In this document: positions 32,714-46,869 of the stretch, in pieces
Numbering within the stretch: position 1 is the first letter of the stretch
How the letters are laid out: each line of letters begins with the position of its first letter
From: Nesterenkonia sp. LB17
Lineage (GTDB): Bacteria > Actinomycetota > Actinomycetes > Actinomycetales > Micrococcaceae
NCBI RefSeq assembly: GCF_022565915.1
Contig: NZ_JAJOYX010000003.1
Location: 62,001-126,000 of the forward strand
Reading direction: 5' to 3'
DNA length: 64,000 nt
Notes under the pieces: model-generated
The model's database searches: none
Seen by the model: only the letters and a program-made list of their open reading frames with translations
What the model was told of the DNA's origin: nothing
Program-made: the position numbers and the translations under genes

Positions 32714-32727
32714 GGCAGGCAGCGTCC

Positions 32728-32746
32728 TTGAGAATCTCAATCATTG
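32728..32746. promoter_or_regulatory. Candidate MarR (PhdR) operator before the importer
   Basis: Perfect palindrome TTGAGA-A-TCTCAA at 32728-32740 followed by AATCATTG (32739-32746). The same AATCATTG and the TCTCAA/TGAGA half-sites recur between the MarR gene and the SDR gene near 36231-36263. Shared words in the two promoters suggest one local regulator, inferred to be the MarR protein. Confidence 0.45.
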
Positions 32747-32751
32747 TTTTC

Positions 32752-32804
32752 TTGAACTATTGACGTAGGAGGCCTATCCTGACTGTGATGTGTTCTGCAT
32801 CACA
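32752..32804 (+). promoter_or_regulatory. Promoter of the aromatic-acid ABC importer with CRP/GlxR-like site
   Basis: -35 TTGAAC (32752-32757), 17-bp spacer, -10 TATCCT (32775-32780); predicted start near 32787. A CRP/GlxR-like box TGTGT-TCTGCA-TCACA occupies 32789-32804, just downstream of that start, and it is embedded in a larger inverted repeat with nine-base arms (32782-32790 / 32798-32806). A site there would be expected to repress. Confidence 0.55.
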
Positions 32805-32857
32805 GTGCGAGTGATCTCATTGTGGTGATCCGAGCAACCTTGCACAAGGAGTCATAG

Positions 32858-33907
32858 ATGACTGATGAGAGCTCGCGCCCGGGGCCGGACCCTCGCGGCA
32901 AAGCCCCAAGAACCCGCGAGGAGGAGGTCCACCGGCTGCACCGCTGGGAATCCTCCGCCGCCGCGGACCGCCGAGGCGGTGACCTCCGCCGACACACCGA
33001 CGTGTCCAGCTCGGCTGCCCTGGACATCGCCACCCGTCCGGACCCTGCCGCGCCGCTGACCTCGATCGCGCAGAGCGGCGCCACCGGTCGCGCCACGACC
33101 TCGGGACCAGGACGGGCCCGCCGACGACCGCGGCGCGGCTGGGACACCAAGCTTCTCGGCGCCGCCGGGGTCGTGGGCCTGTTGCTGACCTGGGAGATCG
33201 TTCCACGCATCGGACTGGTCAACGAACGGTTCATGCCCCCGGCCTCAGAGGCCATCGGCGGACTGATCACGAACTTCGGACTGGCCGACTTCTGGGTCGC
33301 GGTGTTCGACACCATGCACGCCTGGGCCCTGGGCATGATCATCGCGGTGGTGCTGGCCACGGTGCTGGGCTTCATCATCGGCTCCTCGACCTTCCTGCGC
33401 CGCTTCACGAACTCCACGATCGAGTTCCTGCGCCCGGTCCCCTCGGTGGCGCTGATCCCCCTGGCGGTCCTGCTCTTCGGCGTGGGCATCGAGTCCTCGC
33501 TGATGCTCATCGTCTACGCCTGCTTCTGGCAGGTGCTCATCCAGGTGCTCTACGGGGTGGCCGACGTCGACTCGGTCGCGATGAACACCGCACGGTCCTA
33601 CGGACTGGGACCGATGGCGCGGATGCGCTACGTCACCTTCCCGACCGCACTGCCCTACATCATGACCGGTGTGCGCCTGGCCGCCGCCGTGGCGCTGATC
33701 CTCGCGGTCACCGCCCAGCTGATCATCGGCACCCCCGGCCTGGGGGCCGAGATCAGCAGGGCCCAGTCCGGAGGCAACTACGTCTCCATGTACGCCCTCG
33801 TGCTGGCAACCGGCCTGCTCGGGGTTCTGATCAACCTGGTCATGCGGATGATCGAGCGCAAGGTCCTCTCCTGGCACTCCTCGGTCCGCACGGAGGTGGC
33901 GGCATGA
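32858..33907 (+). CDS. NitT/TauT-type ABC importer permease 1, with long N-terminal extension
   Basis: A 349-residue inner-membrane permease. The first 90 residues are hydrophilic, Arg- and Pro-rich and ordinarily absent from this family; six helices follow from about residue 95. The EAA loop (SYGLGPMARMRYVTFPTALPYIMTGVRL, near residue 247 on) contacts the ATPase. The ATG has AAGGAGTC upstream. It overlaps permease 2 by four bases. With the second permease, ATPase and two lipoprotein receptors of the island it is inferred to import an aromatic acid; the family itself also covers sulfonates and nitrate. Confidence 0.88.
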   Translation: MTDESSRPGPDPRGKAPRTREEEVHRLHRWESSAAADRRGGDLRRHTDVSSSAALDIATRPDPAAPLTSIAQSGATGRATTSGPGRARRRPRRGWDTKLLGAAGVVGLLLTWEIVPRIGLVNERFMPPASEAIGGLITNFGLADFWVAVFDTMHAWALGMIIAVVLATVLGFIIGSSTFLRRFTNSTIEFLRPVPSVALIPLAVLLFGVGIESSLMLIVYACFWQVLIQVLYGVADVDSVAMNTARSYGLGPMARMRYVTFPTALPYIMTGVRLAAAVALILAVTAQLIIGTPGLGAEISRAQSGGNYVSMYALVLATGLLGVLINLVMRMIERKVLSWHSSVRTEVAA

Positions 33908-34677
33908 CTTATATCCGGAGTTTCCTCAACATCGTGGCCCTGCCGCTGATCCTGCTGTTCATCTGGTTCCTGGCCACACTCGGGGAGGCGAGCTTCTTCG
34001 TCCCCACCCCGCAGCTGCTGGTCGAGACCTTCATCAACACCTGGACCGCGGAACGCTTCGCCGGCGACGTCTTCCCCTCGCTGGGACGGCTCATGGTGGG
34101 CATCGCGCTCTCCATCGTGATCGGCATCGTGGGCGGCCTGCTGATCGGCTCCTTCCGCTGGCTGCGCGCCCTGCTGGAACCCACCCTGGAGTTCTTCCGC
34201 GCAATCCCGCCCACGGTGCTGATCCCGGTGCTGATGCTGCTGGTCGGCATCGGCGACGAGATGAAGGTCTCGGTGATCGTGCTCGGCGCCGTCTGGCCGA
34301 TCCTGCTCAACACCATCGAAGGTGTGCGTTCGATGGACGAGGTGCTCGCCGACACCAGCCGCACCTACGGGATGAACAAGGTCAACACCGTCCGGTATCT
34401 GATCCTGCCCTCGGCCATGCCGCAGATCATGGCCGGCATCCGCCAGTCGCTCTCGATCGCGCTGATCCTGATGGTGATCTCGGAGATGTTCGCCTCCACC
34501 GAAGGGCTGGGCTTCACCATCGTGCAGTTCCAGCGCTCCTTCGCCATCCCAGAGATGTGGTCGGGGATCGTCCTGCTGGGACTCATCGGCGTGGTGCTCT
34601 CGTTCATCTTCCAGCTCGCCGAGCGCTGGATCCTGGGCTGGTACCACGGGCTGCGCGAGATCGAGCAGTCAGCCTGA
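33904..34677 (+). CDS. NitT/TauT-type ABC importer permease 2
   Basis: A 257-residue SsuC/TauC-like permease with six helices and no extension. The EAA loop TYGMNKVNTVRYLILPSAMPQIMAGIRQS is near residue 155, and the sequence LLVGIGDEMKVSVIVLGAVWPILLNT precedes it. The start overlaps permease 1 (ATGA). Two non-identical permeases imply a heterodimeric channel, which is less usual for this family, where homodimers are common. Confidence 0.9.
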   Translation: MTYIRSFLNIVALPLILLFIWFLATLGEASFFVPTPQLLVETFINTWTAERFAGDVFPSLGRLMVGIALSIVIGIVGGLLIGSFRWLRALLEPTLEFFRAIPPTVLIPVLMLLVGIGDEMKVSVIVLGAVWPILLNTIEGVRSMDEVLADTSRTYGMNKVNTVRYLILPSAMPQIMAGIRQSLSIALILMVISEMFASTEGLGFTIVQFQRSFAIPEMWSGIVLLGLIGVVLSFIFQLAERWILGWYHGLREIEQSA

Positions 34678-34740
34678 GCCTGCCGCACCCCGGCCACCAC
34701 ACCACTTCACACGCGCGACTTCCAGAGAAGGGACCCGGAG

Positions 34741-35649
34741 ATGACCTCCGCACACTCACAGCCCACAAACCCCGTGATCAGCCAGTCCAGCATCCAGGAC
34801 ACACCGGACGGCAGGATCCCCGTCGGGCGGACCATGCCCGATGAACAGCCGATGCTCTCGGTGCAGAATCTGAAGAAGGTCTATCACACCGACGGCGGAG
34901 ACATCGAAGCGGTCAGGAACCTGACCTTCGACCTTCCCAAGGGTCAGCTGGCCTGCCTGGTGGGACCTTCCGGATCGGGCAAGACCACGCTGCTCAAGTG
35001 CATCTCAGGGCTCATGGCGCCCAGCGCCGGCGAGGTCACCCTGCACGGGCAGAAGGTCACCGGGCCGCCGAAGTCGATGGCCGTGGTCTTCCAGGAGTAC
35101 GGCCGCTCACTGTTCCCCTGGCTGCGGGTGGCAGAGAACGTCGAGCTTCCGCTGAAGAACCAGGGGATGGACAAGTCCGCCCGCAAGGATGCGGTGGAAC
35201 AGGCGCTGGAGGCCGTGGGCCTGGCCCACGTGCCGAAGTCATACCCCTGGCAGCTCTCCGGCGGCATGCAGCAGCGTGTGGCGATCGCCCGCGCCGTGGC
35301 GTACCAGCCGGAGGTCCTGCTGATGGATGAGCCCTTTGCCGCCGTGGACGCGCAGACCCGCGCCGATCTCGAGGACCTGGTCCGCGGCATCTGGAAGAAG
35401 CTGGGCGTCTCGGTGCTCTTCGTGACCCACGACATCGATGAGTCCGTCTACCTGGGCGAGCGGGTCATCATCCTGTCCTCCTCACCGACGATCATCCAGG
35501 AGGACGTGCTGGTGGACCTTCCGGCGGACCGCGATCAGCTTGAGACCCGATCCTCGCAGCGCTTCGCCGAGCTGCGTCACCACGTCTACGAGCAGATCCA
35601 GCTGGCGAAGAAGGGCTTCCGACCCGAGGACGCCGTGGCGATGAAGTAG
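34741..35649 (+). CDS. NitT/TauT-type ABC importer ATP-binding protein
   Basis: A 302-residue ATPase powering the importer. Walker A GPSGSGKTT, Q-loop FQEYGRSLFPWL, signature LSGGMQQRV, Walker B LLMDEPFAAVD and switch FVTHDIDE are the SsuB/TauB pattern. An N-terminal tail of about 35 residues precedes the domain. The ATG follows AGAAGGGACCCGGAG. It is the last gene of the permease transcript; the receptors are encoded 4.5 kb further on. Confidence 0.92.
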   Translation: MTSAHSQPTNPVISQSSIQDTPDGRIPVGRTMPDEQPMLSVQNLKKVYHTDGGDIEAVRNLTFDLPKGQLACLVGPSGSGKTTLLKCISGLMAPSAGEVTLHGQKVTGPPKSMAVVFQEYGRSLFPWLRVAENVELPLKNQGMDKSARKDAVEQALEAVGLAHVPKSYPWQLSGGMQQRVAIARAVAYQPEVLLMDEPFAAVDAQTRADLEDLVRGIWKKLGVSVLFVTHDIDESVYLGERVIILSSSPTIIQEDVLVDLPADRDQLETRSSQRFAELRHHVYEQIQLAKKGFRPEDAVAMK

Positions 35650-35652
35650 GCC

Positions 35653-35673
35653 CGCAGCGAGTGTGGAGCTGCG
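35653..35673. terminator. Hairpin between convergent ATPase and MarR genes
   Basis: CGCAGC / GCTGCG arms with a nine-base loop in the 28-bp gap between the two stops. No T-run. Could serve both strands weakly. Confidence 0.35.
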
Positions 35674-35677
35674 CGCC

Positions 35678-36178
35678 TCAGAAGACGATCTTGGCGAGCA
35701 GCACGCGCAGCTGATCCCGCTCCGCGGGACTCAGCGCCTGCAGGGTCTGCTCCTCGGCCTCGCGGGTGCGCTGCGCCGCCTGGGCGTAGAGCTCGTGGCC
35801 GGCTTCGGTGGCGACCAGGATCTTGGAGCGACGGTCCCGCGGATCGGGCTCCCGCCGGATCGCGCCGCGGTCTTCGAGGATGTCGACGAGGGCGACGACC
35901 TGGCTGGGGTCGAGGTCCAGGAATCCGCCCAGCTCGCGCTGCGAGGGGTTGGTCCCGGAGCACGCCATGGCCAGCACGGAGAAATGGCGCACCTTGAGGT
36001 CCAGGTCGGCCAGCAGCTGATTGGCCAGGGCATTGCCCCGGCCTCGGGCACGCGCGGTGAGGAAGGCGACTTCACGTGCCAGGGCGGAGTCCTGGAAGCG
36101 CTCCTCGCTTTCCTCACTTCTCGCCTGCTTCGCGGGAGACGGTGCGCTCGCCGCGGCGGCGGGGGTCGAGGGGGGCAT
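35678..36178 (-). CDS. phdR: MarR family regulator, probable PhdR
   Basis: A 166-residue winged-helix repressor. The core LGGFLDLDPSQVVALVDILEDRGAIRREPDPRDRRSKILVATEAG shows the recognition helix and the DxRDRR wing of MarR proteins. The N-terminus is Ala/Ser/Pro-rich. It is divergent from the SDR gene with 132 bp between them, the position of phdR in Corynebacterium glutamicum, where the MarR protein represses phenylpropanoid genes and responds to CoA-thioester intermediates. Function here is inferred from synteny. The ATG at 36178 is followed by the basic start MPPSTPAAAAS. Confidence 0.82.
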   Translation of the reverse strand: MPPSTPAAAASAPSPAKQARSEESEERFQDSALAREVAFLTARARGRGNALANQLLADLDLKVRHFSVLAMACSGTNPSQRELGGFLDLDPSQVVALVDILEDRGAIRREPDPRDRRSKILVATEAGHELYAQAAQRTREAEEQTLQALSPAERDQLRVLLAKIVF

Positions 36179-36230
36179 GGATTCTCCTAGCAGCGGTTCC
36201 CGAGTGCGGGATTGAACGGATGAGAAGACA

Positions 36231-36272
36231 AATCATTGACTTTCTCAATATTATCAAGTGAGATGTATCACA
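36231..36272. promoter_or_regulatory. phdR-phdB intergenic control region with CRP/GlxR-like site
   Basis: An AT-rich stretch in otherwise GC-rich DNA. AATCATTG (36231-36238, shared with the importer promoter) overlaps TTGACT, a possible -35; TCTCAA (36243-36248) and TGAGA (36259-36263) are inverted half-sites. A CRP/GlxR-like box AGTGA-GATGTA-TCACA lies at 36257-36272. Confidence 0.5.
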
Positions 36273-36310
36273 GTAAGCATAGGCCGCGTGGCCCTACAGA
36301 AGGAGAGACT

Positions 36311-37234
36311 ATGTCGTTGCAAGGCAAGGTTGCCATCGTGACAGGCTCCGGAGCGGGCTTGGGACTGGCGTATGCCCAGGAGCTCGCCGCCCAGGGCGCC
36401 GCCGTCGTCATCAACGACGTGGATCAGGCCCACGCTGATGCCGCCGTGGCGGCCATCGAAGCCGCCGGCGGCCGAGCAGTCGCCGTGGTGGCCCCGGTGG
36501 GGTCCACCGAGACCGCAGAACAGCTCGTCGAGACCGCCGTGACCAGCTTCGGAGGTCTCGACATCCTGGTCACCAACGCTGGGATCCTGCGCGACAAGTC
36601 GCTGCTGAAGATGTCCGACGACGACTTCGACGCCGTGATCAACGTCCACCTCAAGGGCACCTTCACCTGTGTCCGGGCCGCGTTCAAGCACTTCAAGACC
36701 GAAGGCGTGGCCGGGCGGATCGTCTGCATCGGCTCCCCCACCGGTCAGCGCGGAAACTTCGGGCAGACCAACTACGCCGCCGCCAAGGCTGGCATCGTGG
36801 GCATGGTGCGGACCTGGGCGCTGGAGTTCAAGCGCGCCGGAGTCAGCGTCAACGCCGTGATCCCGGTGGCCGCCACCGCGATGACCAAGACCGTGCCCTA
36901 CTTCCAGAAGGCCGTGGAGGCCGACGAGCAGGGGCAGCCCATGCCCGACTTCTTCCGCAAGGGGCTCGGCTTCGGCACCGCGCAGGACGCCGCCGGCGTC
37001 GTCGCCTTCCTCTCCTCCGACGCCGTGGAAGGCATCACCGGACAGGTCATCGGCGCGGGCGGAGACCGGCTGCAGGTCTGGAGCCACCCCGAGCCGGTGG
37101 TCGAAGAGTTCCACGACGGCGGCTGGGACTACGCGACGCTGCAGACCCAGGGCCGCGACATCCTCGGCGCCCACCTGCAGTCGGTGGGCGAGTCCATGCC
37201 GGAGCTTCCCGCCGAGCTGCAGCCCACCGCCTAG
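36311..37234 (+). CDS. phdB: Short-chain dehydrogenase, probable 3-hydroxyacyl-CoA dehydrogenase (PhdB)
   Basis: A 307-residue SDR. NAD(P) motif TGSGAGLG (residues 11-18), NAG at 89-91, and catalytic S142, Y155 and K159 (NYAAAKAG). It is longer than classical SDRs by about 55 C-terminal residues, like the dehydrogenase domain of multifunctional beta-oxidation enzymes. In the phd pathway it would oxidise the 3-hydroxy-3-arylpropanoyl-CoA to the keto thioester. The ATG at 36311 follows AGGAGAGACT. First of a run phdB-phdC-phdD-phdE. Confidence 0.85.
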   Translation: MSLQGKVAIVTGSGAGLGLAYAQELAAQGAAVVINDVDQAHADAAVAAIEAAGGRAVAVVAPVGSTETAEQLVETAVTSFGGLDILVTNAGILRDKSLLKMSDDDFDAVINVHLKGTFTCVRAAFKHFKTEGVAGRIVCIGSPTGQRGNFGQTNYAAAKAGIVGMVRTWALEFKRAGVSVNAVIPVAATAMTKTVPYFQKAVEADEQGQPMPDFFRKGLGFGTAQDAAGVVAFLSSDAVEGITGQVIGAGGDRLQVWSHPEPVVEEFHDGGWDYATLQTQGRDILGAHLQSVGESMPELPAELQPTA

Positions 37235-37293
37235 GCCGCACAGAACACATGCCCAGGACAGCCCGGACAGCCCGAGCAGGAGAGGATCCCCCG

Positions 37294-38268
37294 ATGCGAT
37301 ACCGATCTGCCATCGACGTACATGCCATCGAGGCGGTGGACACCCACGTCCACCTGGAGCTGGACTCGCACGGACACCGCGCGCTGCCCGAGCTGTTCTT
37401 CGACGCCTCGGCGAAGTACTTCAAGACCACCGAGCGCACACCCTCGATCGATCGCATCGCGGAGGTGTACCGGGCGCACCGGATGGCGGCGGTGGTCTTC
37501 ACCGTGGATGCCCGGACCCAGATGCAGCACGCGCCGAACTCCATCGATGATCTGGTGGCGGGGTGCCTGCGCAACAGCGACGTGCTGCTGCCCTTCGGCT
37601 CGGTGGATCCTCGCACCGGACCCGCGGCCCTCGTGGAGGCTCGGCGGCAGGCCGAGGAGCTGGGCGTCCGCGGCTTCAAGTTCCACCCCACCGTGCAGGG
37701 CTTCGACCCCTCGGATCAGCAGTTCTACCCGCTGTGGGAGACCCTGCAGGAGATCGGCCTGCCGCTGATCTTCCACACCGGACAGAACGGCATGGGGGCC
37801 GGCACCCCCGGCGGAGCAGGGTTGAAGCTGAAGTACTCCAATCCGCTGCTCCTCGACGACGTCGCCGCAGACTTCCCCGGGCTGCCGATCATCATGGCGC
37901 ACCCCTCGGTGCCCTGGCAGGACGAGGCGATCTCCATCGCCACGCACAAGTCCAACGTCTACATCGACCTCTCCGGGTGGTCCCCGAAGTACTTCCCTGA
38001 CAATCTGGTCCGCAGCGCGAACAACATCCTCTCGGCCAAGCTGCTCTTCGGCACCGACTATCCGCTGATCACCCCGGAGAAGTGGTTGGACGCCTTCGCG
38101 GATCTGCCGATCAAGGACGAGGTCCGGCCCAGGATCCTCAAGCACAACGCGGTCGCGCTGCTCGGACTCGAGGCGCCTTCAACGGTCCCCGGTGCCACGA
38201 CCACAGACCCCACGACCACAGACCCCACGACATCCGACCCCGTGACACCCGGAGCCCACGATGCGTGA
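37294..38268 (+). CDS. phdC: TIM-barrel metal-dependent hydrolase, amidohydrolase_2 type (PhdC)
   Basis: A 324-residue hydrolase. DTHVHLELD (metal HxH, near residue 17), FKFHPTVQG, LIFHTGQNG, IMAHPS and LLFGTDYPLI give the amidohydrolase-2/ACMSD metal ligands in order. Corynebacterium glutamicum places the same type of gene between the SDR and acyl-CoA dehydrogenase; as no thiolase occurs in either cluster, hydrolytic cleavage of the beta-keto thioester is the inferred role. The C-terminus carries a disordered Thr-Asp-Pro repeat from a 15-bp tandem DNA repeat. It overlaps the next gene by eight bases. The ATG at 37294 follows AGGAGAGG. Confidence 0.82.
   Translation: MRYRSAIDVHAIEAVDTHVHLELDSHGHRALPELFFDASAKYFKTTERTPSIDRIAEVYRAHRMAAVVFTVDARTQMQHAPNSIDDLVAGCLRNSDVLLPFGSVDPRTGPAALVEARRQAEELGVRGFKFHPTVQGFDPSDQQFYPLWETLQEIGLPLIFHTGQNGMGAGTPGGAGLKLKYSNPLLLDDVAADFPGLPIIMAHPSVPWQDEAISIATHKSNVYIDLSGWSPKYFPDNLVRSANNILSAKLLFGTDYPLITPEKWLDAFADLPIKDEVRPRILKHNAVALLGLEAPSTVPGATTTDPTTTDPTTSDPVTPGAHDA
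38196..38240. repeat. Three 15-bp tandem units at the 3' end of phdC
   Basis: CACGACCACAGACCC repeated at 38196 and 38211, with a diverged third copy at 38226. It encodes a TTDPT-type tail outside the catalytic barrel; in-frame copy-number change would be tolerated. Confidence 0.85.
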
Positions 38269-39457
38269 ACCAGCCAACGGCACGGTCATCCCCTCGGACC
38301 TCTACGGCTTCGCCGAGCGGCTCACCACGGCCGAGCGCAGCGTGATCACCGGACTGCGCGAGGTGCTCGCCGCACAGGTCCACCCCCACCTCAATGCCGC
38401 CTGGGATGAGGCGCGCTTCCCGGAGGAGATCATCGCCCCGCTGCGCAGCCTGAACCTGATGGACCCGCCTGCCCTGCGCGAGGCCGGAGAACCGATCCGC
38501 GACATCTTCCTCGGCTTCCGGAACTTCGAACTCACCCGCTGCGACATCAACGTGGCCACCTACTACAACGCCCAGGCCAGCCTGTTCCGCACGGTCTGCA
38601 CCGTGGGCGGCTCCGCCGAGCAGGCGCGTGAGCTCGACGCGAAGATCGTCTCCCATGAACTCACCGGAGTCTTCGGACTGACCGAACCCGAGCACGGCTC
38701 CGACGTCGCCGGAGGCCTCGCCACCGCAGCAACCCAGGACCCGCAGACCGGGGACTGGATCATCGACGGCGCCAAACGCTGGATCGGCGGCGCCACCGCG
38801 GCCGACGTCGTGGCGACCTTCGCTCGCGACACCGCGGACGGTCAGGTGAAGTGCTTCCTGGTCCCTACTTCGGCCCCGGGTGTCTCCATGGAGGTCATTC
38901 CGCGCAAAGCCTCGCTGCGGATCATGCAGAACGCCGACATCACCTACCGGCAGGTCCGCGTCCCGGAGAGCGCCCGACTGCAGCAGATCAACAGCTTCTC
39001 CGACGTCGCCGGCTGCCTGCGCCGGATGCGTTCCGATGTGGCCTGGATGGCCACCGGAGCCATGGCCGGCGCCTACGAGGCCGCCCTGGCCTACGTCCGG
39101 CACCGGGAGCAGTTCGGCCGCCCCATCGCCGGATTCCAACTGGTCCAGGAGAAGCTCGCGATGATGCTGGGCAACCTCACCGCCTCGCTGGGCATGGTCG
39201 TCCAGCTCACCGAGCAGCAGGCCGCCGGGATCTACCGGGATGAGAACTCCGCGCTGGCGAAGATGTACACCTCGCTGCGGCTGCGCGAGACCGTGGCGCT
39301 GGCCCGCGAGGTCTGCGGCGGCAACGGAATCACGCTGGACACCGACGTGGCCCGGTTCCACGCCGACGCCGAGGCGATCTACTCCTACGAAGGCACCCAC
39401 GAGATCAATGCGCTCATCGTCGGACGGGCCGTCACCGGGGTGGGAGCCTTCACCTAG
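38261..39457 (+). CDS. phdD: Acyl-CoA dehydrogenase, glutaryl-CoA-dehydrogenase-like (PhdD)
   Basis: A 398-residue flavoenzyme. FGLTEPEHGSDVAG (FAD/substrate), RWIGGATAADVVATFAR, the REQFGRPIAGFQLVQEKLAMM helix and SYEGTHEINALIVGRAVTG with the catalytic Glu characterise the glutaryl-CoA branch of the family. In a phenylpropanoid pathway it would introduce the double bond into saturated side chains such as 3-(4-hydroxyphenyl)propanoyl-CoA. It overlaps phdC by eight bases, so is co-translated. Confidence 0.87.
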   Translation: MREPANGTVIPSDLYGFAERLTTAERSVITGLREVLAAQVHPHLNAAWDEARFPEEIIAPLRSLNLMDPPALREAGEPIRDIFLGFRNFELTRCDINVATYYNAQASLFRTVCTVGGSAEQARELDAKIVSHELTGVFGLTEPEHGSDVAGGLATAATQDPQTGDWIIDGAKRWIGGATAADVVATFARDTADGQVKCFLVPTSAPGVSMEVIPRKASLRIMQNADITYRQVRVPESARLQQINSFSDVAGCLRRMRSDVAWMATGAMAGAYEAALAYVRHREQFGRPIAGFQLVQEKLAMMLGNLTASLGMVVQLTEQQAAGIYRDENSALAKMYTSLRLRETVALAREVCGGNGITLDTDVARFHADAEAIYSYEGTHEINALIVGRAVTGVGAFT

Positions 39458-39508
39458 CCCTTCTCACCCATGACTCTTCACCCGGGCAGACGCCTATCAA
39501 AAAACAGA

Positions 39509-39524
39509 TGTGACGCAGACCACA
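39509..39524. promoter_or_regulatory. CRP/GlxR-like site upstream of phdE
   Basis: TGTGA-CGCAGA-CCACA, one mismatch from the palindromic TGTGA-N6-TCACA consensus, in the 114-bp gap between phdD and phdE. It suggests that phdE and the receptor gene have their own catabolite-controlled promoter. No clear -10/-35 pair was seen. Confidence 0.55.
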
Positions 39525-39571
39525 CCCGACGACCCGCGCACTCAGAATCACCCGCCACCTCAAGGAGCAGC

Positions 39572-40045
39572 ATGACCGACACCGACACCGCCCGCACCGT
39601 CGTCTCGTTCGAGGACGCACGCACGATGGCCGGCACCGACCTGGGCGAGACCGCCTGGCGCGAGATCACCCAGGAGATGATCAACACCTTCGCCGATGCC
39701 ACCGATGATCACCAGTGGATCCACGTGGACCCCGAGCGGGCCAAGGACGGACCCTTCGGAGCGCCCATCGCGCACGGCTTCCTGACCCTGTCCCTGATCA
39801 TTCCGTTCTGGGGCGAGCTCTTCGACGTCACCGATGTCAGCACGAAGCTCAACTACGGCCTGGACAAGGTCCGCTTCACGGCACCGGTGAAGGTCGGATC
39901 CAAGGTACGGATGCGCGGCACCATCAGCGCCGTCGAAGAGGTCAAGGGCGGAGGCCTCCACCTGGTCGTGGACGCGACCTTCGAGGTCGAGGGACAGGAG
40001 CGACCCGCCGTCGTGGCCACCTTTCTGGCCCGCTTCTACCCCTGA
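39572..40045 (+). CDS. phdE: MaoC-like enoyl-CoA hydratase (PhdE)
   Basis: A 157-residue hot-dog-fold hydratase. The hydratase-2 signature with catalytic Asp and His is seen in FADATDDHQWIHVDPERA and GAPIAHGFLTLSL. It would add water across the cinnamoyl-CoA double bond. A strong AAGGAGCAGC site precedes the ATG at 39572; the identical AAGGAGCAG precedes the next gene. It is last in the phdBCDE order and is followed after 97 bp by the first substrate-binding protein. Confidence 0.88.
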   Translation: MTDTDTARTVVSFEDARTMAGTDLGETAWREITQEMINTFADATDDHQWIHVDPERAKDGPFGAPIAHGFLTLSLIIPFWGELFDVTDVSTKLNYGLDKVRFTAPVKVGSKVRMRGTISAVEEVKGGGLHLVVDATFEVEGQERPAVVATFLARFYP

Positions 40046-40142
40046 CCCGAGCCGAGCAGCTGCTGTTGAACCCACTCCTCCACCGTCACGCCACACCCAC
40101 CGAGGGCCGCCGTTCTGCGGCCCCGCACCTCAAGGAGCAGTC

Positions 40143-41147
40143 ATGAAGAAGAACATCGCATCCATCACCGGACTCGCCGCGGTCAGCATCCTGGCACTGG
40201 GCGCCTGCGGCTCGGGGTCTCCGGCCGGGGATGAGGAAGACGGCAATGGCGCCGACACCGCGAGCGAGAACGGCGAGCTGACCGAGATCACCGTCGGCGT
40301 GCTCCCCATCGCCCCCTCGGTCGGGATCTACTACGGCATCGAGAACGGCATCTTCGAGGAGCACGGGCTCGACGTCGAGCTCTCCACCTCCAACGCCGGC
40401 GCCGCCATGCTCCCCGCCGTGAACACCCAGCAGCTCGAGTTCGGCATCGGCAACCCCAACTCGGTGCTCAACGCCAACGACCGCGGACTGGACATGCGGA
40501 TCGTCACCGGGTACTCCAACTCGCTGGCCGAGGGCGACGACATCGCCGGCGTGGTCTCCACCGTGGAGAGCGGCATCGATGACTGGACCGGACTCGAGGG
40601 CAACACCGTCTCGGTCAATGCGCTGCAGACCCAGGGCGATCTGACCATCATGGAGGCCGTGGAGCAGGCCGGCGGCGACCCCGAAGCCGTCGAATTCTCC
40701 GAGATGCCCTTCCCCGACATGCAGGCCCAGCTGGAGCAGGGCAACACCGACGCCATCTGGGTGCCCGAGCCCTTCCTGAGCAACGCGCTGGCCGATGAGG
40801 CGAACCAGCTGGTCGGATACTCCTTCCAGGACGCCATCGCCGGAATGCCCACCATGGTGAGCTTCAGCTCCGGAGAGTACGTCGACGAGAACCCGGAGGT
40901 GGCCCAGGCCTTCAGCGACGCGATGAACGAGTCGCTGCAGGCGGCCGAGGAGGACGAGGAAGGCGTGCGCGCACTCCTTCCCGAGTTCATCGACCTGCCC
41001 GAAGAGGCAGCCGAGAACCTCCGCATGGAGGAGCTCGACGGCGAGATCCGCACCGAGCAGATCGAGGAGGCCGGGGCGCTGATGGTGAAGTTCGACTTCA
41101 TCAGCGACGAGCCGGACACCTCCACGCTGTACTTCGAAGGCGAGTGA
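40143..41147 (+). CDS. ABC importer substrate-binding lipoprotein 1 (NitT/TauT family)
   Basis: A 334-residue lipoprotein. Lipobox LGAC places the acylated Cys at residue 22, followed by an acidic Asp/Glu/Asn linker. The binding fold begins ITVGVLPIAPSVGIYYGIENGIFEEHGLDVEL, the SsuA/NrtA/TauA pattern, and ends near EEAGALMVKFDFISDEPD. It is inferred to capture a hydroxycinnamate or benzoate-type acid for the permeases at 32.9-34.7 kb. A hairpin follows 22 bp after the stop. It is a paralogue of the next gene. Confidence 0.9.
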   Translation: MKKNIASITGLAAVSILALGACGSGSPAGDEEDGNGADTASENGELTEITVGVLPIAPSVGIYYGIENGIFEEHGLDVELSTSNAGAAMLPAVNTQQLEFGIGNPNSVLNANDRGLDMRIVTGYSNSLAEGDDIAGVVSTVESGIDDWTGLEGNTVSVNALQTQGDLTIMEAVEQAGGDPEAVEFSEMPFPDMQAQLEQGNTDAIWVPEPFLSNALADEANQLVGYSFQDAIAGMPTMVSFSSGEYVDENPEVAQAFSDAMNESLQAAEEDEEGVRALLPEFIDLPEEAAENLRMEELDGEIRTEQIEEAGALMVKFDFISDEPDTSTLYFEGE

Positions 41148-41169
41148 GCCCCACGCAGCCGACTGCGCC

Positions 41170-41203
41170 GGTGGGCGGGAGCGGAGCACCCCTTCCGCCC
41201 ACC
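41170..41203. terminator. Hairpin between the two receptor genes
   Basis: GGTGGGCGG pairs with CCGCCCACC around a 16-base loop, just after receptor gene 1. No T-run. It probably ends or attenuates the phdE-receptor transcript. Confidence 0.5.
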
Positions 41204-41226
41204 ACCGCTGACTCACACCCTGACTC

Positions 41227-41254
41227 TTGACATCCCTGACTTCATTCCTATACA
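41227..41254 (+). promoter_or_regulatory. Near-consensus sigma-70-type promoter for receptor 2
   Basis: -35 TTGACA (41227-41232), 16-bp spacer, -10 TATACA (41249-41254), ten bases before the ribosome site GGAG. This is the best-matching promoter seen in the window; the predicted start at about 41261 falls within the ribosome site, so the real start may be shifted by a few bases or the message nearly leaderless. Confidence 0.6.
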
Positions 41255-41269
41255 CATCGGAGAACCACC

Positions 41270-42274
41270 ATGAAACACCTGTCTCGCGGGACCTTCGCCC
41301 TCTGCGCCGTCCTTGCCCTCTCAGCCTGCGGAAGCGGCTCCCCCTCCGGCGACGCCGATGGCGAACCGGCCGACGATGACGCCCAAGCCGAGGGCGGCGA
41401 GCTCACCGAGGTCGAGGTCGGCCTGATTCCGATCGTCGACGTCGCCTCGATCTACCTCGGGGACCGGGAGGGGATCTTTGAAGAACACGGGCTTGACCTG
41501 ACGCTGACTCTGGCCCAGGGCGGCGCCGCCATCATCCCCGCCGTGTCCACAGGAGACTTCGACTTCGGCTTCTCCAACGTGACCTCCCTGCTCGTCGCGG
41601 CCGACAGCGGGCTGCCGCTGCAGACCGTGGCCGCAGGTCCGCAGACCACGGGCGACTCCGAGAATGACTTCTCAGCGATCCTGGTCAAACCGGACTCCGG
41701 CATCGAAACCGTCGCGGACCTCGAAGGCCAGCGTGTGGCCGTCAACACGCTCAACAACATCTCCGACTCGATGATCTCCGAAGGCGTGCTCGAAGCCGGT
41801 GGCGAGCCGTCGAACGTCGACTTCGTGGAGGTCGCCTTCCCCGACATGCTCGCCCAGCTCGAAGCGGACAATGTCGACGCCATCTTCGCGGTGGACCCCT
41901 TCGCGAGCATCGCCGACAACGAGGGTTACGACCGGGTCTTCGCGCCCTTCGCCGATGTGGTCGACGAGCTGGGTGTGGGCACCTACTTCGCCTCGCAGCA
42001 GCTGGTCGACGAGGACCCGGAACTGGTGGAGAGCTTCCACGCCGCGGTCCAGGAGTCTCAGGCCTACGCCGAGGAGAACCCCGAGGCGGTGCGCGAGGTG
42101 CTGCTCGAGTACACGACCATCGATGAATCTCTGCTGAGCGAGATCACGATCCCCGCATTCCCTGAGGAGGTCAATATGGACTCGCTCCAGCAGGTCGCGG
42201 AGATCTCTGAACGCCACGGACTCATCGGTGAGGTCCCGAACGTCGAGGACCTGGTCTGGGAGGGCGCTCGATGA
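41270..42274 (+). CDS. ABC importer substrate-binding lipoprotein 2 (NitT/TauT family)
   Basis: A 334-residue lipoprotein of exactly the same length as its upstream paralogue. Lipobox LSAC with acylated Cys20, an acidic linker, then VEVGLIPIVDVASIYLGDREGIFEEHGLDL. The GGAAIIPAVSTGDFDFGFSNVTSLLVA region aligns with receptor 1 but ligand-site residues differ, suggesting a different aromatic ligand. Its stop overlaps the CoA-ligase start (ATGA), tying uptake of one ligand to its activation. Confidence 0.9.
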   Translation: MKHLSRGTFALCAVLALSACGSGSPSGDADGEPADDDAQAEGGELTEVEVGLIPIVDVASIYLGDREGIFEEHGLDLTLTLAQGGAAIIPAVSTGDFDFGFSNVTSLLVAADSGLPLQTVAAGPQTTGDSENDFSAILVKPDSGIETVADLEGQRVAVNTLNNISDSMISEGVLEAGGEPSNVDFVEVAFPDMLAQLEADNVDAIFAVDPFASIADNEGYDRVFAPFADVVDELGVGTYFASQQLVDEDPELVESFHAAVQESQAYAEENPEAVREVLLEYTTIDESLLSEITIPAFPEEVNMDSLQQVAEISERHGLIGEVPNVEDLVWEGAR

Positions 42275-43827
42275 AGAATCACGGACTGGGCGACTGGATC
42301 CACCGACGACGGGTGCGATCCTGCGGCCAGACCGCGCTGATCAGCGCCGGTGGAGAACAGACCTATGACCAGCTGGCACAGCGCATCGACAAGCTCGCCA
42401 ACGCCCTGACCGACCGCGGGATCAGCTCCGGTGACCGAGTGGCGTATCTGGGCGAGAACTCCGCGGCGTTTCTCGAGACGCTCTTCGCCGCGGGAAGTCT
42501 CGGCGCGGTGTTCGTCCCGCTGAACACCCGGCTGGCACCGCCCGAGGTCCAGTTCGCGCTGCAGGACTCGGGGGCCCGGCTGCTGGTCACCTCACATCCG
42601 CTGACACCGGTCGCCGCGCCGGCCTGCCGGGACACCGCCGTGGAGCAGGTGCTGATCGTGGTCGAGGGAGCGGCTCCACCCGAGGAGCCTGCAGCATTTC
42701 CGGTGCCCACGGAGACGTTCGAAGCGGTGCTGGCCTCAGGAGCCGAGCAGCGGCCGGACGTCGCGGTGGAGCTGGAGGATCTCGCGGTGATCCTCTACAC
42801 CTCCGGCACCACCGGGAGCCCCAAGGGCGCCATGCTCAGCCACGGGAACCTGACCTGGAACGCCATCAACGTGCTCACCGACTTCGACCTCTCCAGCAAG
42901 GACGTCGCGCTGATGATCGCGCCGCTGTTCCACGTCGCCGCCCTGGGACAGGGCGCGCTGCCGGTGCTGCTCAAGGGCGGGAGCATCCTCCTGGAGCAGC
43001 GTTTCGAGCCGGGGCGGGTGCTGTCGCTGATCGAGGAACACCGGGTCACCAACATCTCCGGGGTGCCCACCACGTTCCAGCTGATCTGTGAGCATCCACA
43101 GTGGGAGAGCACCGACATCTCCTCGCTGCGCAACCTCACCTGCGGCGGCTCCGCGGTGCCGATGCGGGTCCTCGACGCCTATGAGAGCCGCGGGCTCGCG
43201 TTCACCATGGGATACGGGATGACGGAGACCTCACCGGGCGCCACGACCCTGCCTCCGGCCTATTCACGGACGAAGCAGGGCTCCGGGGGGCTCCCGCACT
43301 TCCACACCGACGTCAGAGTGGTGGACCCGGCGGACCGGCCCTGCCCGATGGGCGAGGTGGGCGAGATCCAGGTGCACGGACCCAACGTGATCGCCGAATA
43401 CTGGAACCGGCCCGAGGCCACCGCCGGCTCCTTCGTGCACGAAGAAGATGGCCTCTGGCTCAAGACCGGGGATATGGGCTACTTCGATGAGGACGGCTTC
43501 CTGTTCATCTCCGACCGGCTCAAGGACATGATCATCTCCGGCGGGGAGAACATCTACCCGGCGCAGGTGGAGCAGCAGATCGCAGCGTTGGAGGCCGTCG
43601 CCGCCGTGGCTGTCATCGGGGTAGAGGATGCCCGCTGGGGCGAGGTCCCGCGCGCGGTCATCGTGGTGCGCGATGGCCACGCGCTGACCGAGGAGCAGGT
43701 GCTGCACCACCTCCACGGCAAGCTCGCCCGGTACAAGATCCCGAAGTCGGTGGTCTTCGTGGAATCGATGCCGCGCACCGCCTCGGGCAAGATCCGCAAA
43801 CCCGACCTGCGCCGACAATATGCCTAG
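42271..43827 (+). CDS. phdA: Acyl-CoA ligase, probable hydroxycinnamate-CoA ligase (PhdA)
   Basis: A 518-residue adenylate-forming enzyme. LYTSGTTGSPKGAMLSH (P-loop, near residue 177), GYGMTETSP, KTGDMGYFDEDGFLFISDRLKDMIISGGENIYP and the C-terminal lysine motif PRTASGKIRKPDLR are complete. The natural substrate cannot be read off, but context with phdBCDE and van genes makes a phenylpropanoid acid most likely. It is translationally coupled to receptor 2. It converges with the PadR gene. Confidence 0.85.
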   Translation: MKNHGLGDWIHRRRVRSCGQTALISAGGEQTYDQLAQRIDKLANALTDRGISSGDRVAYLGENSAAFLETLFAAGSLGAVFVPLNTRLAPPEVQFALQDSGARLLVTSHPLTPVAAPACRDTAVEQVLIVVEGAAPPEEPAAFPVPTETFEAVLASGAEQRPDVAVELEDLAVILYTSGTTGSPKGAMLSHGNLTWNAINVLTDFDLSSKDVALMIAPLFHVAALGQGALPVLLKGGSILLEQRFEPGRVLSLIEEHRVTNISGVPTTFQLICEHPQWESTDISSLRNLTCGGSAVPMRVLDAYESRGLAFTMGYGMTETSPGATTLPPAYSRTKQGSGGLPHFHTDVRVVDPADRPCPMGEVGEIQVHGPNVIAEYWNRPEATAGSFVHEEDGLWLKTGDMGYFDEDGFLFISDRLKDMIISGGENIYPAQVEQQIAALEAVAAVAVIGVEDARWGEVPRAVIVVRDGHALTEEQVLHHLHGKLARYKIPKSVVFVESMPRTASGKIRKPDLRRQYA

Positions 43828-43829
43828 GC

Positions 43830-43852
43830 GCTGAACATCGGAGCCGTTCAGC
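43830..43852. terminator. Hairpin between convergent phdA and PadR genes
   Basis: GCTGAAC / GTTCAGC around a nine-base loop, overlapping the PadR stop codon. No T-run; weak evidence. Confidence 0.35.
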
Positions 43853-44483
43853 CCTGGAGGTCGGGGGCGGCGTCGACGTCGGGGGTCGGCGCGGCGTCGT
43901 CGTGCTGCTCGAGCTGCTCGAGCAGCTCCAGGCCGCTGTGCGCCCAGTCCACCTCGGCCTGGGCCAGCCGGATCAGTCCGTCGTAGGCGAACGCCTTGAA
44001 GGCGACGATGCGCTCATGCTGCTCGGCGGGATAGCGCTCCAGCCGGGCGGCGATCATCGGGTGCTCGTGGGATTCGATCGCCTGGATCTGGCTGCTCCAC
44101 TGCGCGATCTGCTCGTTGTAGTGCGCGGCGTGCTTCTGCAGGTGCATCCGCACATTCTCAGGATCGGTCCATTCAAAATACGCGGCCTGCATATGGGCCA
44201 CATCGCGCCAGGGCGCGTACTTCAACGGAGTGGCCATCCACTCACGGAACGCCGCTTCCCCGGCCGCAGTGATGTAGTACCTGGTCTTGGTGCTGTTCGG
44301 GCCCCAGCGCTCCTCACGGCCCTCCACCAGCACCTCCGTCTCCATCCGCCGGAGCTCGGGATAGATCTGCGAATCCGGGGCGTGCCAGACGTGCCCCACC
44401 GAACCCTCGAAGCGCTTGGCGGTCTCATAACCGGTCAGCGGGGCCGCGGTGAGGATCGCCAGGATGGCGTAGCGCAGGCTCAA
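43848..44483 (-). CDS. vanR: PadR family regulator, probable VanR
   Basis: A 211-residue PadR subfamily regulator. The winged helix is at the N-terminus: YAILAILTAAPLTGYETAKRFEGSVGHVWHAPDSQIYPELRRME, with the wing RYYITAAGEAAFREWM. A helical C-terminal dimerisation domain follows, and the tail is Asp/Ala-rich. A TTG start at 44483 has GAGAGG upstream. It is divergent from vanA, as the PadR-type VanR repressor of vanillate genes sits near vanA in Corynebacterium. Vanillate as effector is inferred. A TATAGT on the minus strand (44525-44530) may be its -10. Confidence 0.83.
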   Translation of the reverse strand: MSLRYAILAILTAAPLTGYETAKRFEGSVGHVWHAPDSQIYPELRRMETEVLVEGREERWGPNSTKTRYYITAAGEAAFREWMATPLKYAPWRDVAHMQAAYFEWTDPENVRMHLQKHAAHYNEQIAQWSSQIQAIESHEHPMIAARLERYPAEQHERIVAFKAFAYDGLIRLAQAEVDWAHSGLELLEQLEQHDDAAPTPDVDAAPDLQG

Positions 44484-44543
44484 GGCGTTGGAACCTCTCG
44501 AAAAGGGGCAGGTGCTTGCCCTCCACTATATCCAGAGCTATTC

Positions 44544-44578
44544 TGTGACCCACAGCACATATAACTATGTAGATAGCT
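44544..44578. promoter_or_regulatory. vanR-vanA control region: CRP/GlxR-like box and candidate PadR operator
   Basis: TGTGA-CCCACA-GCACA at 44544-44559 resembles a CRP/GlxR site. Overlapping it, ACATA-TAAC-TATGT at 44557-44570 is an inverted repeat of the kind bound by PadR proteins, and AGCTA (44536-44540) pairs with TAGCT (44574-44578) outside it. CTGTGA (44543) and TATGTA (44566) could act as -35 and -10 at 17-bp spacing. Confidence 0.5.
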
Positions 44579-44641
44579 AGTGGCGTCGACGAGCGGACCG
44601 AGACCGGTCTCCACGGCGTCCTCGAGTCCCAGGAGGCGGAC

Positions 44642-45760
44642 ATGACAGATCTCAGCCCGAGCGGCGCCACCGCGAAGAACATGGCCTATCCGCTCAACGC
44701 CTGGTATGTGGCCGGATGGGATCATGAGGTCAATCGGAAGAAGATCCTCTCCCGGAAGATCGCCGACCGCCCCATGGCGCTCTACCGCACCGAGGAGGGC
44801 CGGCCCGTCGCGCTGACCGACGCCTGCTGGCACCGACTCGCCCCCCTCTCCATGGGCTCCCTGGTGGGTCCGGACGGAGTCCAGTGTCCGTATCACGGCC
44901 TGCAGTACAACTCCGCTGGTCGTTGCACCTTCATGCCGGCGCAGAAGACGATCAACCCCTCGGCGATGGTGAACTCCTTCCCCGTGGTGGAGCGGCACCG
45001 CTTCATCTGGGTCTGGCCCGGAGACCCGATGCTCGCCGACGCCGCCCTGATCCCGGACATGCACCAGATGGGCTCCGACGAGTGGGCCGGCGACGGCAAG
45101 ACCATCGATGTGCGCGCGAACTATCAGCTGGTGCTGGACAACCTGATGGACCTCACCCATGAGGAGTTCCTGCACTCCTCCTCGATCGGGCAGAAGGAGC
45201 TCAGCGAGTCCGATATCGAGGTCACCCACGACGACCGCACGGTCACCGTGACCCGGTTCATGGAGAACATCGACGCCCCACCGTTCTGGCTGAAGAACAT
45301 GCGAGACAAGTTCCCAGACTTCGAAGGCAAGGTCGACCGCTGGCAGATCATCGAGTTCCAGATGCCCTCCACGATCTGCATCGATGTCGGGGTGGCCAAG
45401 GCGGGCACGGGCGGGCTCACCGGTGATCGCAGCCAGGGTGTGAACGGGTACGTGATGAACACGATCTCCCCGGTCGATCAGGCCAACGCGATGTACTACT
45501 GGGCCTTCATGCGCAACTACCGGCTGGAGAGCCAGCGGATCACCACCGAGCTGCGCGACGGCGTGCACGGGGTCTTCGCCGAGGACGAGGAGATGCTCAC
45601 CGCCCAGCAGCAGGCGATCGTGGACAACCCGGACCACGAGTTCTACAACCTCAACATCGACGCCGGCGGCATGTGGGTGCGCCGGCTGATCCAGCGCGCC
45701 GTGGAGGCCGAGCGCACGATGCTCGCCTCCGACGCCGACCTCTCCGACGCCAAGGGCTGA
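44642..45760 (+). CDS. vanA: Rieske-type vanillate O-demethylase oxygenase subunit
   Basis: A 372-residue terminal oxygenase. The Rieske 2Fe-2S ligands are C62, H64, C82 and H85 (CWH ... CPYH); the mononuclear iron site follows with D170, H173 and H178 (DLTHEEFLH). It lacks the large beta-subunit dependence of dioxygenases. It converts vanillate to protocatechuate and formaldehyde, taking electrons from the adjacent reductase. Related enzymes demethylate other methoxybenzoates, so the exact substrate is inferred from the phd context. The upstream gap carries overlapping CRP-like and PadR-like boxes. Confidence 0.88.
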   Translation: MTDLSPSGATAKNMAYPLNAWYVAGWDHEVNRKKILSRKIADRPMALYRTEEGRPVALTDACWHRLAPLSMGSLVGPDGVQCPYHGLQYNSAGRCTFMPAQKTINPSAMVNSFPVVERHRFIWVWPGDPMLADAALIPDMHQMGSDEWAGDGKTIDVRANYQLVLDNLMDLTHEEFLHSSSIGQKELSESDIEVTHDDRTVTVTRFMENIDAPPFWLKNMRDKFPDFEGKVDRWQIIEFQMPSTICIDVGVAKAGTGGLTGDRSQGVNGYVMNTISPVDQANAMYYWAFMRNYRLESQRITTELRDGVHGVFAEDEEMLTAQQQAIVDNPDHEFYNLNIDAGGMWVRRLIQRAVEAERTMLASDADLSDAKG

Positions 45761-45766
45761 TGCCAG

Positions 45767-46774
45767 GTGTCACAGGGAACCCAGCTGCACTGGCAGCGAG
45801 CCGTGGTGAAGTCGCGCCGCGCCGCCGCCGATGAGATCGCCGAGATCGTCCTCGCCGGGGAACGACCGCTGTTCACCGAGCCTGGCGCGCATATCGACGT
45901 GCGCATCGCCCCGGACATGGTCCGCTCCTACTCGGTGGTCGAGGGCGCGGTGGACGGAAGCTGGGTGAAGATCGGGGTGCGCCGCTCCCCCACCTCGCGC
46001 GGCGGATCACGGTTCATGCACGCCCTTGAACCCGGTGATCACCTCGAGGTCACCTCGCCGCTGCAGAACTTCCCGCTGCGAGTGGGCGCGCCGCGCTACG
46101 TGCTCCTCGCCGGCGGAGTGGGCATCACGGCGATCCACTCGATGGCCCGGGTGCTCAAGCGGCTCGGCGCGGACTACCAGCTGATCTTCGTCGGCCGCTC
46201 CCGCCCGGCCATGGCCTTCCTCGACGAGCTGCATCGCGAGCACGGACCGCGGCTGAGGCTCTCGGTCGATGACGAGGGCGACGTCCTCGACGTCAAGGGG
46301 CTTCTCGGGCAGGTGGATCACTCCACCGAGTTCTACATGTGTGGTCCCATCCGACTGATGGACGCCGTGCGGAGGGCCTGGATCGAGCGCGAGCTGCCGA
46401 TGCCGAACCTTCGCTACGAGACCTTCGGCAACAGCGGCTGGTTCGACCCGGAGGAGTTCGAGCTGCGGATCCGCGGCTCCGAGCGCCACACGGTCGTCTC
46501 TCCGGACGAGTCCATCCTGGAGGCGCTGGAGCGGGTCGGCGTGGAGGCCATGTACGACTGCCGCAAGGGCGAATGCGGGCTGTGCGTGGTCAAGGCCGAG
46601 CAGCTGAACGGCGTCATCGACCACCGTGATGTGTTCTTCAGCGAGGCGGAGAAGAGCACCGACACCAAGCTCTGCGTCTGCGTCTCCCGGGTGGCCTCCT
46701 GCGCGAACTCAGCGGGAGCCGGTGCCGAGGATTCAGCCTCGACGCGGGCTACGCTGACCCTCGACTTTCCCTGA
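45767..46774 (+). CDS. vanB: Vanillate O-demethylase reductase subunit
   Basis: A 335-residue class IA reductase. An FMN/NAD ferredoxin-reductase module occupies about residues 8-225, with RSYSVVEG (flavin), LLAGGVGITAIHSMARVL (NAD) and FYMCGP. A C-terminal plant-type 2Fe-2S domain has C265, C270, C273 and C303. It supplies electrons to VanA. The GTG is six bases after the vanA stop; AAGG in the vanA end is a plausible ribosome site. It ends with a disordered Ala/Ser tail. Confidence 0.88.
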   Translation: MSQGTQLHWQRAVVKSRRAAADEIAEIVLAGERPLFTEPGAHIDVRIAPDMVRSYSVVEGAVDGSWVKIGVRRSPTSRGGSRFMHALEPGDHLEVTSPLQNFPLRVGAPRYVLLAGGVGITAIHSMARVLKRLGADYQLIFVGRSRPAMAFLDELHREHGPRLRLSVDDEGDVLDVKGLLGQVDHSTEFYMCGPIRLMDAVRRAWIERELPMPNLRYETFGNSGWFDPEEFELRIRGSERHTVVSPDESILEALERVGVEAMYDCRKGECGLCVVKAEQLNGVIDHRDVFFSEAEKSTDTKLCVCVSRVASCANSAGAGAEDSASTRATLTLDFP

Positions 46775-46790
46775 TCCCCCACCGTTGAGG

Positions 46791-46848
46791 GGCGGCTTCT
46801 CCGGACATCTCATGGGCCGAGAGGCCGCAGCTGTTCGGAGAATCCGCC
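46791..46848. terminator. Large hairpin between convergent vanB and LLM oxidoreductase genes
   Basis: Seventeen-base arms (46791-46807 and 46832-46848) with two mismatches, core TTCTCCG / CGGAGAA, around a 24-base loop that itself contains GGCC-GAGA-GGCC. No T-run, but stability should be high. It closes the catabolic island. Confidence 0.65.
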
Positions 46849-46869
46849 GCTCGACGCGTCAGGTGGGTC

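Follow-up and report, generated by a model that had tools for sequence, protein, structure and literature searches.

Background and main finding

The carriers PhdT of Corynebacterium glutamicum and CouT of Rhodococcus jostii RHA1 both belong to the major facilitator superfamily (MFS). The phd cluster of C. glutamicum, which includes PhdT, reportedly has the same gene order as the locus described here, a catabolic island at positions 32858-46774 of a 64,000-nucleotide stretch of Nesterenkonia sp. LB17 (contig NZ_JAJOYX010000003.1, positions 62,001 to 126,000; hereafter the window), and is said to encode PhdR as a MarR-type regulator and PhdD as an acyl-CoA dehydrogenase. Where the phd cluster has PhdT, the island has an ATP-binding cassette (ABC) importer of the NitT/TauT type, and its cluster is adjoined by vanAB. 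The two systems have in common the enzyme set and, as predicted for the island, hydrolytic cleavage of the 3-oxoacyl-CoA (PMC5479773), with PhdA as the ligase and PhdT as the permease in C. glutamicum (PMC10576375). Ferulate use by C. glutamicum needs a β-oxidative route to vanillate, followed by conversion of vanillate to protocatechuate, and its vanR-vanABK genes combine a PadR-type repressor with vanAB, as in the island (PMC8358305). Unlike vanR-vanABK, which includes vanK, the island lacks a vanK-like carrier, and its van genes are fused to the phenylpropanoid genes.

The cou genes of R. jostii RHA1 share with the island a CouR-like repressor, the core of the CouR box, the amidohydrolase CouO, and formation of a CoA thioester followed by β-oxidative removal of the side chain (PMC4737184). 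The carrier in RHA1 is CouT, whereas in the island the box core stands before an ABC permease operon. In Rhodopseudomonas palustris, CouPSTU is likewise an ABC system for hydroxycinnamate uptake, accompanied by a CouR repressor that senses p-coumaroyl-CoA (PMC3610893). However, CouP is of the LivK type and belongs to a non-β-oxidative pathway in a proteobacterium, while the island importer is of the NitT/TauT type, has two receptors and is found in an actinobacterium. Aromatic substrates are known in the family of the island importer from the TauT-family systems OphFGH (phthalate) and SsuABC (aromatic sulfonate) (PMC3223731). No report of a NitT/TauT importer for hydroxycinnamates or a phenylpropanoid pathway was found among the open-licence papers listed, judged by their titles and abstract openings and by passages from a few. 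ABC uptake of hydroxycinnamates is already established through the LivK-type receptor of R. palustris; what appears to be new here, judging from the sequence, is the NitT/TauT type within an actinobacterial CouR-type regulon.

We consider it likely that the block is a catabolic island of the phd/cou type, which degrades phenylpropanoids β-oxidatively and takes them up by an ABC importer of the NitT/TauT family, and that a MarR protein represses both of its operons. Outside the cell, hydroxycinnamates and similar aromatic acids would bind to receptor 1, and probably also to receptor 2, and then be imported through a channel of two permeases and one ATPase. The ligase would form the CoA thioester, and the acyl-CoA dehydrogenase (acting on saturated side chains), the MaoC protein, the short-chain dehydrogenase/reductase (SDR) and the amidohydrolase would then trim the side chain hydrolytically until a benzoate is left. 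Demethylation of vanillate by VanAB would yield protocatechuate, which would enter the chromosomal pca pathway. The MarR protein would repress the catabolic and permease operons through CouR-type boxes until released by the hydroxycinnamoyl-CoA that the ligase makes. The original prediction, made from sequence alone, was that the strain imports hydroxycinnamates by a high-affinity ABC system and carries ferulate to protocatechuate within one 14-kb block; the present analysis supports and strengthens it, the ligand and the high affinity remaining predictions. If true, actinobacteria own an ATP-driven, binding-protein route for hydroxycinnamates inside a CouR-type regulon; its genes could then be used to engineer cells that take up dilute lignin aromatics, and receptors now annotated only as taurine- or nitrate-like would gain a likely ligand class.

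Gene content and pathway assignment

The island consists of 14 intact open reading frames with the expected Pfam domains; these and the two operator-like sites are as follows.

32728..32740, no strand: CouR-box core TTGAGAATCTCAA upstream of the permease operon; sequence match
32858..33907, + strand: permease 1 of the ABC importer (NitT/TauT type); PF00528 (BPD_transp_1)
33904..34677, + strand: permease 2 of the ABC importer; PF00528 (BPD_transp_1); overlaps permease 1 by 4 bases
34741..35649, + strand: ATPase of the ABC importer; PF00005 (ABC_tran)
35678..36178, - strand: MarR-type repressor, CouR/PhdR-like; best solved matches 3FM5 and 5CYV
36236..36248, no strand: CouR-box core TTGACTTTCTCAA in the MarR-SDR gap; sequence match
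36311..37234, + strand: SDR, proposed 3-hydroxyacyl-CoA dehydrogenase (PhdB-like); PF00106
37294..38268, + strand: amidohydrolase, proposed 3-oxoacyl-CoA ketohydrolase (PhdC/CouO-like); PF04909 (Amidohydro_2) and family alignment
38261..39457, + strand: acyl-CoA dehydrogenase (PhdD-like); PF00441/PF02770
39572..40045, + strand: MaoC-type enoyl-CoA hydratase (PhdE-like); PF01575
40143..41147, + strand: receptor 1 lipoprotein (SBP1); PF09084 (NMT1 family); AlphaFold2 pLDDT 88.0; receptor-1 clade
41270..42274, + strand: receptor 2 lipoprotein (SBP2); PF09084 (NMT1 family); AlphaFold2 pLDDT 89.0
42271..43827, + strand: proposed hydroxycinnamate-CoA ligase (PhdA-like); PF00501; best solved match 8WEV
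43848..44483, - strand: PadR-type repressor, VanR-like; PF03551; best solved matches 6LG2 and 5Z7B
44642..45760, + strand: VanA-like Rieske oxygenase, proposed vanillate O-demethylase; PF00355 + PF19112 (Rieske + VanA_C)
45767..46774, + strand: VanB-like reductase; PF00111 over cut-off, NAD-binding domain below cut-off; reductase models match

All of the catabolic and regulatory genes that the original prediction had listed (MarR, SDR, amidohydrolase, dehydrogenase, MaoC, ligase, PadR, vanA and vanB) are thus intact and carry the expected domains. The complete NitT/TauT-type importer that it described is also present, with NMT1-type receptors, BPD_transp_1 permeases and an ABC_tran ATPase, and can be refined as being split between two places: permease 1, permease 2 and the ATPase form a run upstream of MarR, while both receptors lie within the catabolic operon, in the interval between MaoC and the ligase. 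Both receptors have a lipobox, the cysteine of which is invariant across 20 aligned receptors. The run from SDR to ligase (SDR, amidohydrolase, dehydrogenase, MaoC, receptors 1 and 2, ligase) is read from a single strand, no gap exceeding 122 bases; the amidohydrolase and dehydrogenase genes overlap, and receptor 2 extends 4 bases over the start of the ligase. MarR is transcribed opposite to its neighbours, and PadR is divergent from vanA-vanB.

The ligase, SDR, amidohydrolase, MaoC and acyl-CoA dehydrogenase together make up the phd/cou set, and no thiolase family match was found by Pfam in any of the 14 island proteins, in line with the absence noted earlier; nor did Pfam find an MFS carrier among the 14 genes, the ABC importer being present. 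The closest solved structure to the ligase is 8WEV, named feruloyl-CoA synthetase (E 6e-150). Downstream, a Rieske oxygenase with VanA_C, a 2Fe-2S reductase and a divergent VanR-like PadR form a VanR-VanAB module, the PadR protein matching 6LG2 (E 6e-55) and 5Z7B (E 7e-55), which we take to be VanR of C. glutamicum, over residues 1-190 of 211. The earlier assignment of phd/cou-type enzymes with hydrolytic side-chain removal, VanAB and a VanR-like PadR is consistent with these tests.

NCBIfam matches to the SDR, the acyl-CoA dehydrogenase and MaoC are below cut-off only, the amidohydrolase matches none and the other names are generic, as might be expected if the substrates were another class of aryl- or alkyl-CoA, such as steroid or terpenoid side chains, and the designation as phenylpropanoid enzymes were simply borrowed from C. 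glutamicum. We regard this as very improbable, given that the closest ligase structure is a feruloyl-CoA synthetase, that the regulator is CouR-like and accompanied by CouR-box cores, that VanA, VanB and PadR adjoin, and that the enzyme set fits PhdA, B, C and E (PMC5479773). Among the matches listed for the amidohydrolase, the nearest named one is from Micrococcus terreus (80%), followed by Paeniglutamicibacter and Citricoccus (76%).

The host genome (2.82 Mb, 10 contigs) encodes pcaH over the family cut-off on contig C4 (C4:492346-492996), with a weaker second match adjoining, presumably pcaG. A pobA-like gene is also present (C4:496488; 366 bits, the cut-off being 539), so that protocatechuate has an exit and 4-hydroxybenzoate a likely one. 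Beside pcaH there is also a PcaK-like MFS gene (C4:494211, 341 bits, under the cut-off of 419). The proposal that an ABC importer stands in place of an MFS carrier consequently holds for the cluster and not for the organism.

The MarR regulator and its probable operator

The best solved matches of the MarR protein are 3FM5 (E 7e-21) and 5CYV (E 7.7e-21), which are structures of R. jostii RHA1 CouR, the first free of p-coumaroyl-CoA and the second containing it (PMC4737184). Arg36 and Arg38 of CouR align with a lysine and an arginine in the island protein, so that both positions are basic; lysine at the Arg36 position is described for homologues in C. glutamicum and Arthrobacter, and the published CouR box, cATTGA-N5-TCAATg, lies over a -35 element (PMC4737184). 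An inverted repeat that matches the core of this box in sequence is found at both cluster promoters, within CCTTGAGAATCTCAATC before permease 1 (core 32728-32740) and within CATTGACTTTCTCAATA in the MarR-SDR gap (core 36236-36248). The operator core at both promoters links the importer to the same likely regulon as the breakdown genes.

The TTGA-N5-TCAA core occurs four times in the window against 0.17 expected, a count that none of 100 shuffles reached, and 16 times in the 2.82-Mb genome against three for a reversed-pattern control. Two of the window cores (11560, 17513) fall outside the island. Among nine relatives in the genus that were mapped with the cluster, the core is kept between MarR and SDR in all nine and before permease 1, at the same place, in eight, the ninth (L084) having a one-mismatch form.

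A wider comparison covered 80 named actinobacterial loci, the best 80 of at least 591 stretches matching the amidohydrolase profile. Their promoter zones, 39.9 kb in total, contain 58 cores and the remaining 1.44 Mb contains 16, so that cores are about 130-fold denser in the zones. This enrichment holds for the 5-base spacer only: when the spacer is set to 2-4 or 6-9 bases the zones contain 0-3 matches, and reversed half-sites give 1. Nine of the 58 zone cores lie in zones of transport or ligase genes only, four before ligases and five before receptors, where control spacers give 0 or 1. The receptor cases are L092, L106 and three Microbacterium loci (L139, L141 and L147) in which the receptor, permeases and ATPase form one run. 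In Micrococcus terreus, an operon of a receptor-2-like gene, permease and ATPase lies apart from the cluster, on a contig of equal length, and has a core 221 bases upstream.

Other symmetrical sites are also present. A perfect palindrome, ACTGTGATG-N7-CATCACAGT, lies at 32782-32806, downstream of the permease 1 core, and is largely conserved in the genus, and a GTGA-N6-TCAC site follows the MarR-SDR core at 36258-36271. These sites possibly serve a further regulator of the CRP/GlxR kind.

Boundaries and spread within the genus

Nine other genomes of the genus also have the block, with protein identities of 72-98%, so that its occurrence is not due to chance; it is present in at least 10 of the 30 genomes, the mapping covering 20 fetched regions. 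It is flanked by an ABC-2 exporter gene and folD. In the nine genomes with the cluster at this site these flanks are 13.1-22.5 kb apart, while among the 16 remaining genomes that have the two flanks on a single contig the spacing is 1.3-3.9 kb in 15 and 11.8 kb in one (G071), which identifies the block as a discrete insert; five of the 30 genomes could not be scored. In one genome (G303:C31, L084), an orthologous cluster with receptor 1 only and no VanAB is found on a different contig, and the gap at the usual site is 2.7 kb.

VanAB is the least stable part of the block. VanA was found in seven of the 30 genomes (E 1e-60), and four of the 10 cluster-bearing genomes have no match to the island VanA. 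In three loci (L075-L077, from G305, G321 and G320) VanAB is missing and the VanR-like PadR is kept at 86% identity. Apparent transposase open reading frames are seen by eye in the VanAB gap of L076 (13675-16225).

Apparent exchange of carriers in actinobacterial clusters

NitT/TauT permeases adjoin phd-like clusters in 16 of the 80 named loci (two of which also have an MFS gene), as found by the synteny comparison that the original prediction had proposed; six more have a receptor only (two also MFS) and 23 have MFS only. The ABC-importer arrangement therefore recurs in actinobacteria beyond this strain. In 65 of 120 loci (40 unnamed and the 80 named), MaoC and the ligase share a strand and are no more than 4 kb apart, and the slot between them contains an MFS gene in 18, receptor 1 alone in five, both receptors in eight (13 with a receptor), an SDR in seven, another gene in one and nothing in 26. 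Two of the loci (L082 and L090) overlap; both are in the slot count, and L082 was omitted from the amidohydrolase tree. MFS labels were assigned by tblastn with seven representatives, six of them confirmed as MFS by Pfam and the seventh taken from L138; a Pfam check of 10 membrane proteins gave six MFS and four other transporters.

In an amidohydrolase tree of 113 rows, built by a quick method, 19 changes of the ABC-or-receptor label are required, at least 14 counted by starred branches. Three labels require 28 changes over all 113 rows, in which the label 'none' may hide carriers beyond the fetched stretch, and nine over loci with an ABC or MFS label alone. With so many label changes, the carrier appears to have been swapped many times in such clusters, the island being one instance. 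Such natural exchange at a single operon slot, if true, would amount to a clean experiment.

Two further observations concern cluster types. In L114 (Corynebacterium hylobatis), the amidohydrolase is 68% identical and an MFS gene is nearby, and tblastn found no other cluster enzyme in 20.9 kb. A second, divergent cluster type (L082/L090 of G301, L057, L059, L145, L151, L157) mostly has the order MaoC-SDR-(weak ligase match)-amidohydrolase-dehydrogenase; some of these loci adjoin NitT/TauT genes, and none has an exact CouR-box core.

Probable ligand of the importer

Several observations weigh against the proposed interpretation of the island. Known ligands of NitT/TauT-type receptors include sulfonates, nitrate, pyrimidines, thiamin and PQQ, and in a screen in R. 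palustris the five targets of this class (COG0715) bound compounds carrying several carboxyl or amino groups and apparently no aromatic acids (PMC3223731). The closest solved match of VanA is the dicamba O-demethylase DdmC. Neither carrier type lies within reach in 35 of the 80 named loci (nine of them cut by contig ends). A TTGAC promoter element overlaps half of the operator core, and TTGAC/GTCAA on its own is enriched about 2-fold in the promoter zones, with 108 occurrences in their 39.9 kb and 1733 in the remaining 1.44 Mb. Only five of the 16 named loci that have NitT/TauT permeases show an exact core immediately before an importer gene. In L169, a sixth such locus, the core stands before MaoC in an apparent single operon MaoC-receptor-ligase-permeases-ATPase, and the other 10 have no exact core before importer genes. 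Among four unlinked importer loci fetched, the core is absent before three (L188, L189, L190).

The receptor family names and the screen would suit an importer whose ligand, such as a sulfonate, nitrate or thiamine precursor, has nothing to do with the catabolic genes beside it. The AlphaFold2 models of the receptors (pLDDT 88 and 89) match pyrimidine (formylaminopyrimidine), thiamin, taurine and alkanesulfonate binders first, with no single ligand favoured. The receptors do not, however, reach the curated taurine/alkanesulfonate cut-offs (TIGR01729/TIGR01728), scoring 96.1 and 109.3 bits against 163.5 for the SsuA model and 40.2 and 49.0 against 304.25 for the taurine model, and sulfonate or taurine import is unlikely in view of these cut-offs, the operon coupling and the operator. 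The receptors also lie inside the catabolic operon, where receptor 2 overlaps the ligase, the genus conserves a CouR-box core at the permease operon, and NitT/TauT permeases recur beside such clusters. We therefore hold an unrelated ligand to be improbable.

It is similarly unlikely that the importer mainly serves vanillate and hydroxybenzoates, hydroxycinnamates entering by the PcaK-like MFS protein elsewhere. In favour of this are the MFS gene in the same genome, the gene named pcaK that is upregulated by FA in Kocuria strains (PMC12343579), and receptors about 50% identical to receptor 2 near pca, pob and van genes in some sister genomes. Yet receptor 1 occurs in phd-type operons even where the island-type VanA is absent, the four cluster-bearing genomes without VanA retain the importer, and the operator type answers to hydroxycinnamoyl-CoA. 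VanAB presence was also considered as a guide to the role of receptor 2, and the two do not co-vary, since L075-L077 keep receptor 2 without VanAB while L084 lacks both. Mutual exclusion of the importer and a PcaK-like MFS in the genus was likewise discarded, as several genomes hold both.

Uptake of hydroxycinnamates thus being the preferred assignment, the two receptors may differ in ligand. Receptor 1 falls in a 34-row clade (SH-aLRT 99) from Micrococcaceae, Microbacterium, Micromonospora, Geodermatophilus and others, with receptor 2 outside it; the tree omits matches below 30% identity, of 60 bits or less, or shorter than 240 residues. The tie of this clade to phd-type clusters is partly selection, because L091-L170 were fetched by amidohydrolase and only the first set (20 regions) by receptor. 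Five sister genomes encode receptors that are 49-51% identical to receptor 2. In G302 the ABC genes concerned lie at about 74.7-78.1 kb on contig C2, with pcaH at 69380 and the pobA-like gene starting at 80990; in G297 they are about 5 kb away from vanAB; in G311, a genome that is 62% complete and has broken frames, some 12 kb separates them from pcaH fragments; and in G304 and G301 they lie near other phd-kind clusters.

These contexts suggest a division of labour. A wider proposal is an unnamed, actinobacteria-wide NitT/TauT phenylpropanoid family that would have swapped places repeatedly with MFS carriers in CouR-type regulons, in which a shared channel would serve receptor 1 for hydroxycinnamates and receptor 2 for benzoates (vanillate, hydroxybenzoate). 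We put this forward tentatively and think it rather doubtful, since receptor 2 has no firm grouping in the tree with the receptors linked to pca and van genes in G302 and G297. These two stand apart, and receptor 2 falls beside the receptors from G311, G304 and G301, with support of 92 on a branch that is not starred. In G302 (C2:69380-82180), which has no TIGR00895 match at E 1e-40, the receptor-2-like NitT/TauT importer sits between pcaHG and the pobA-like gene, as if replacing PcaK.

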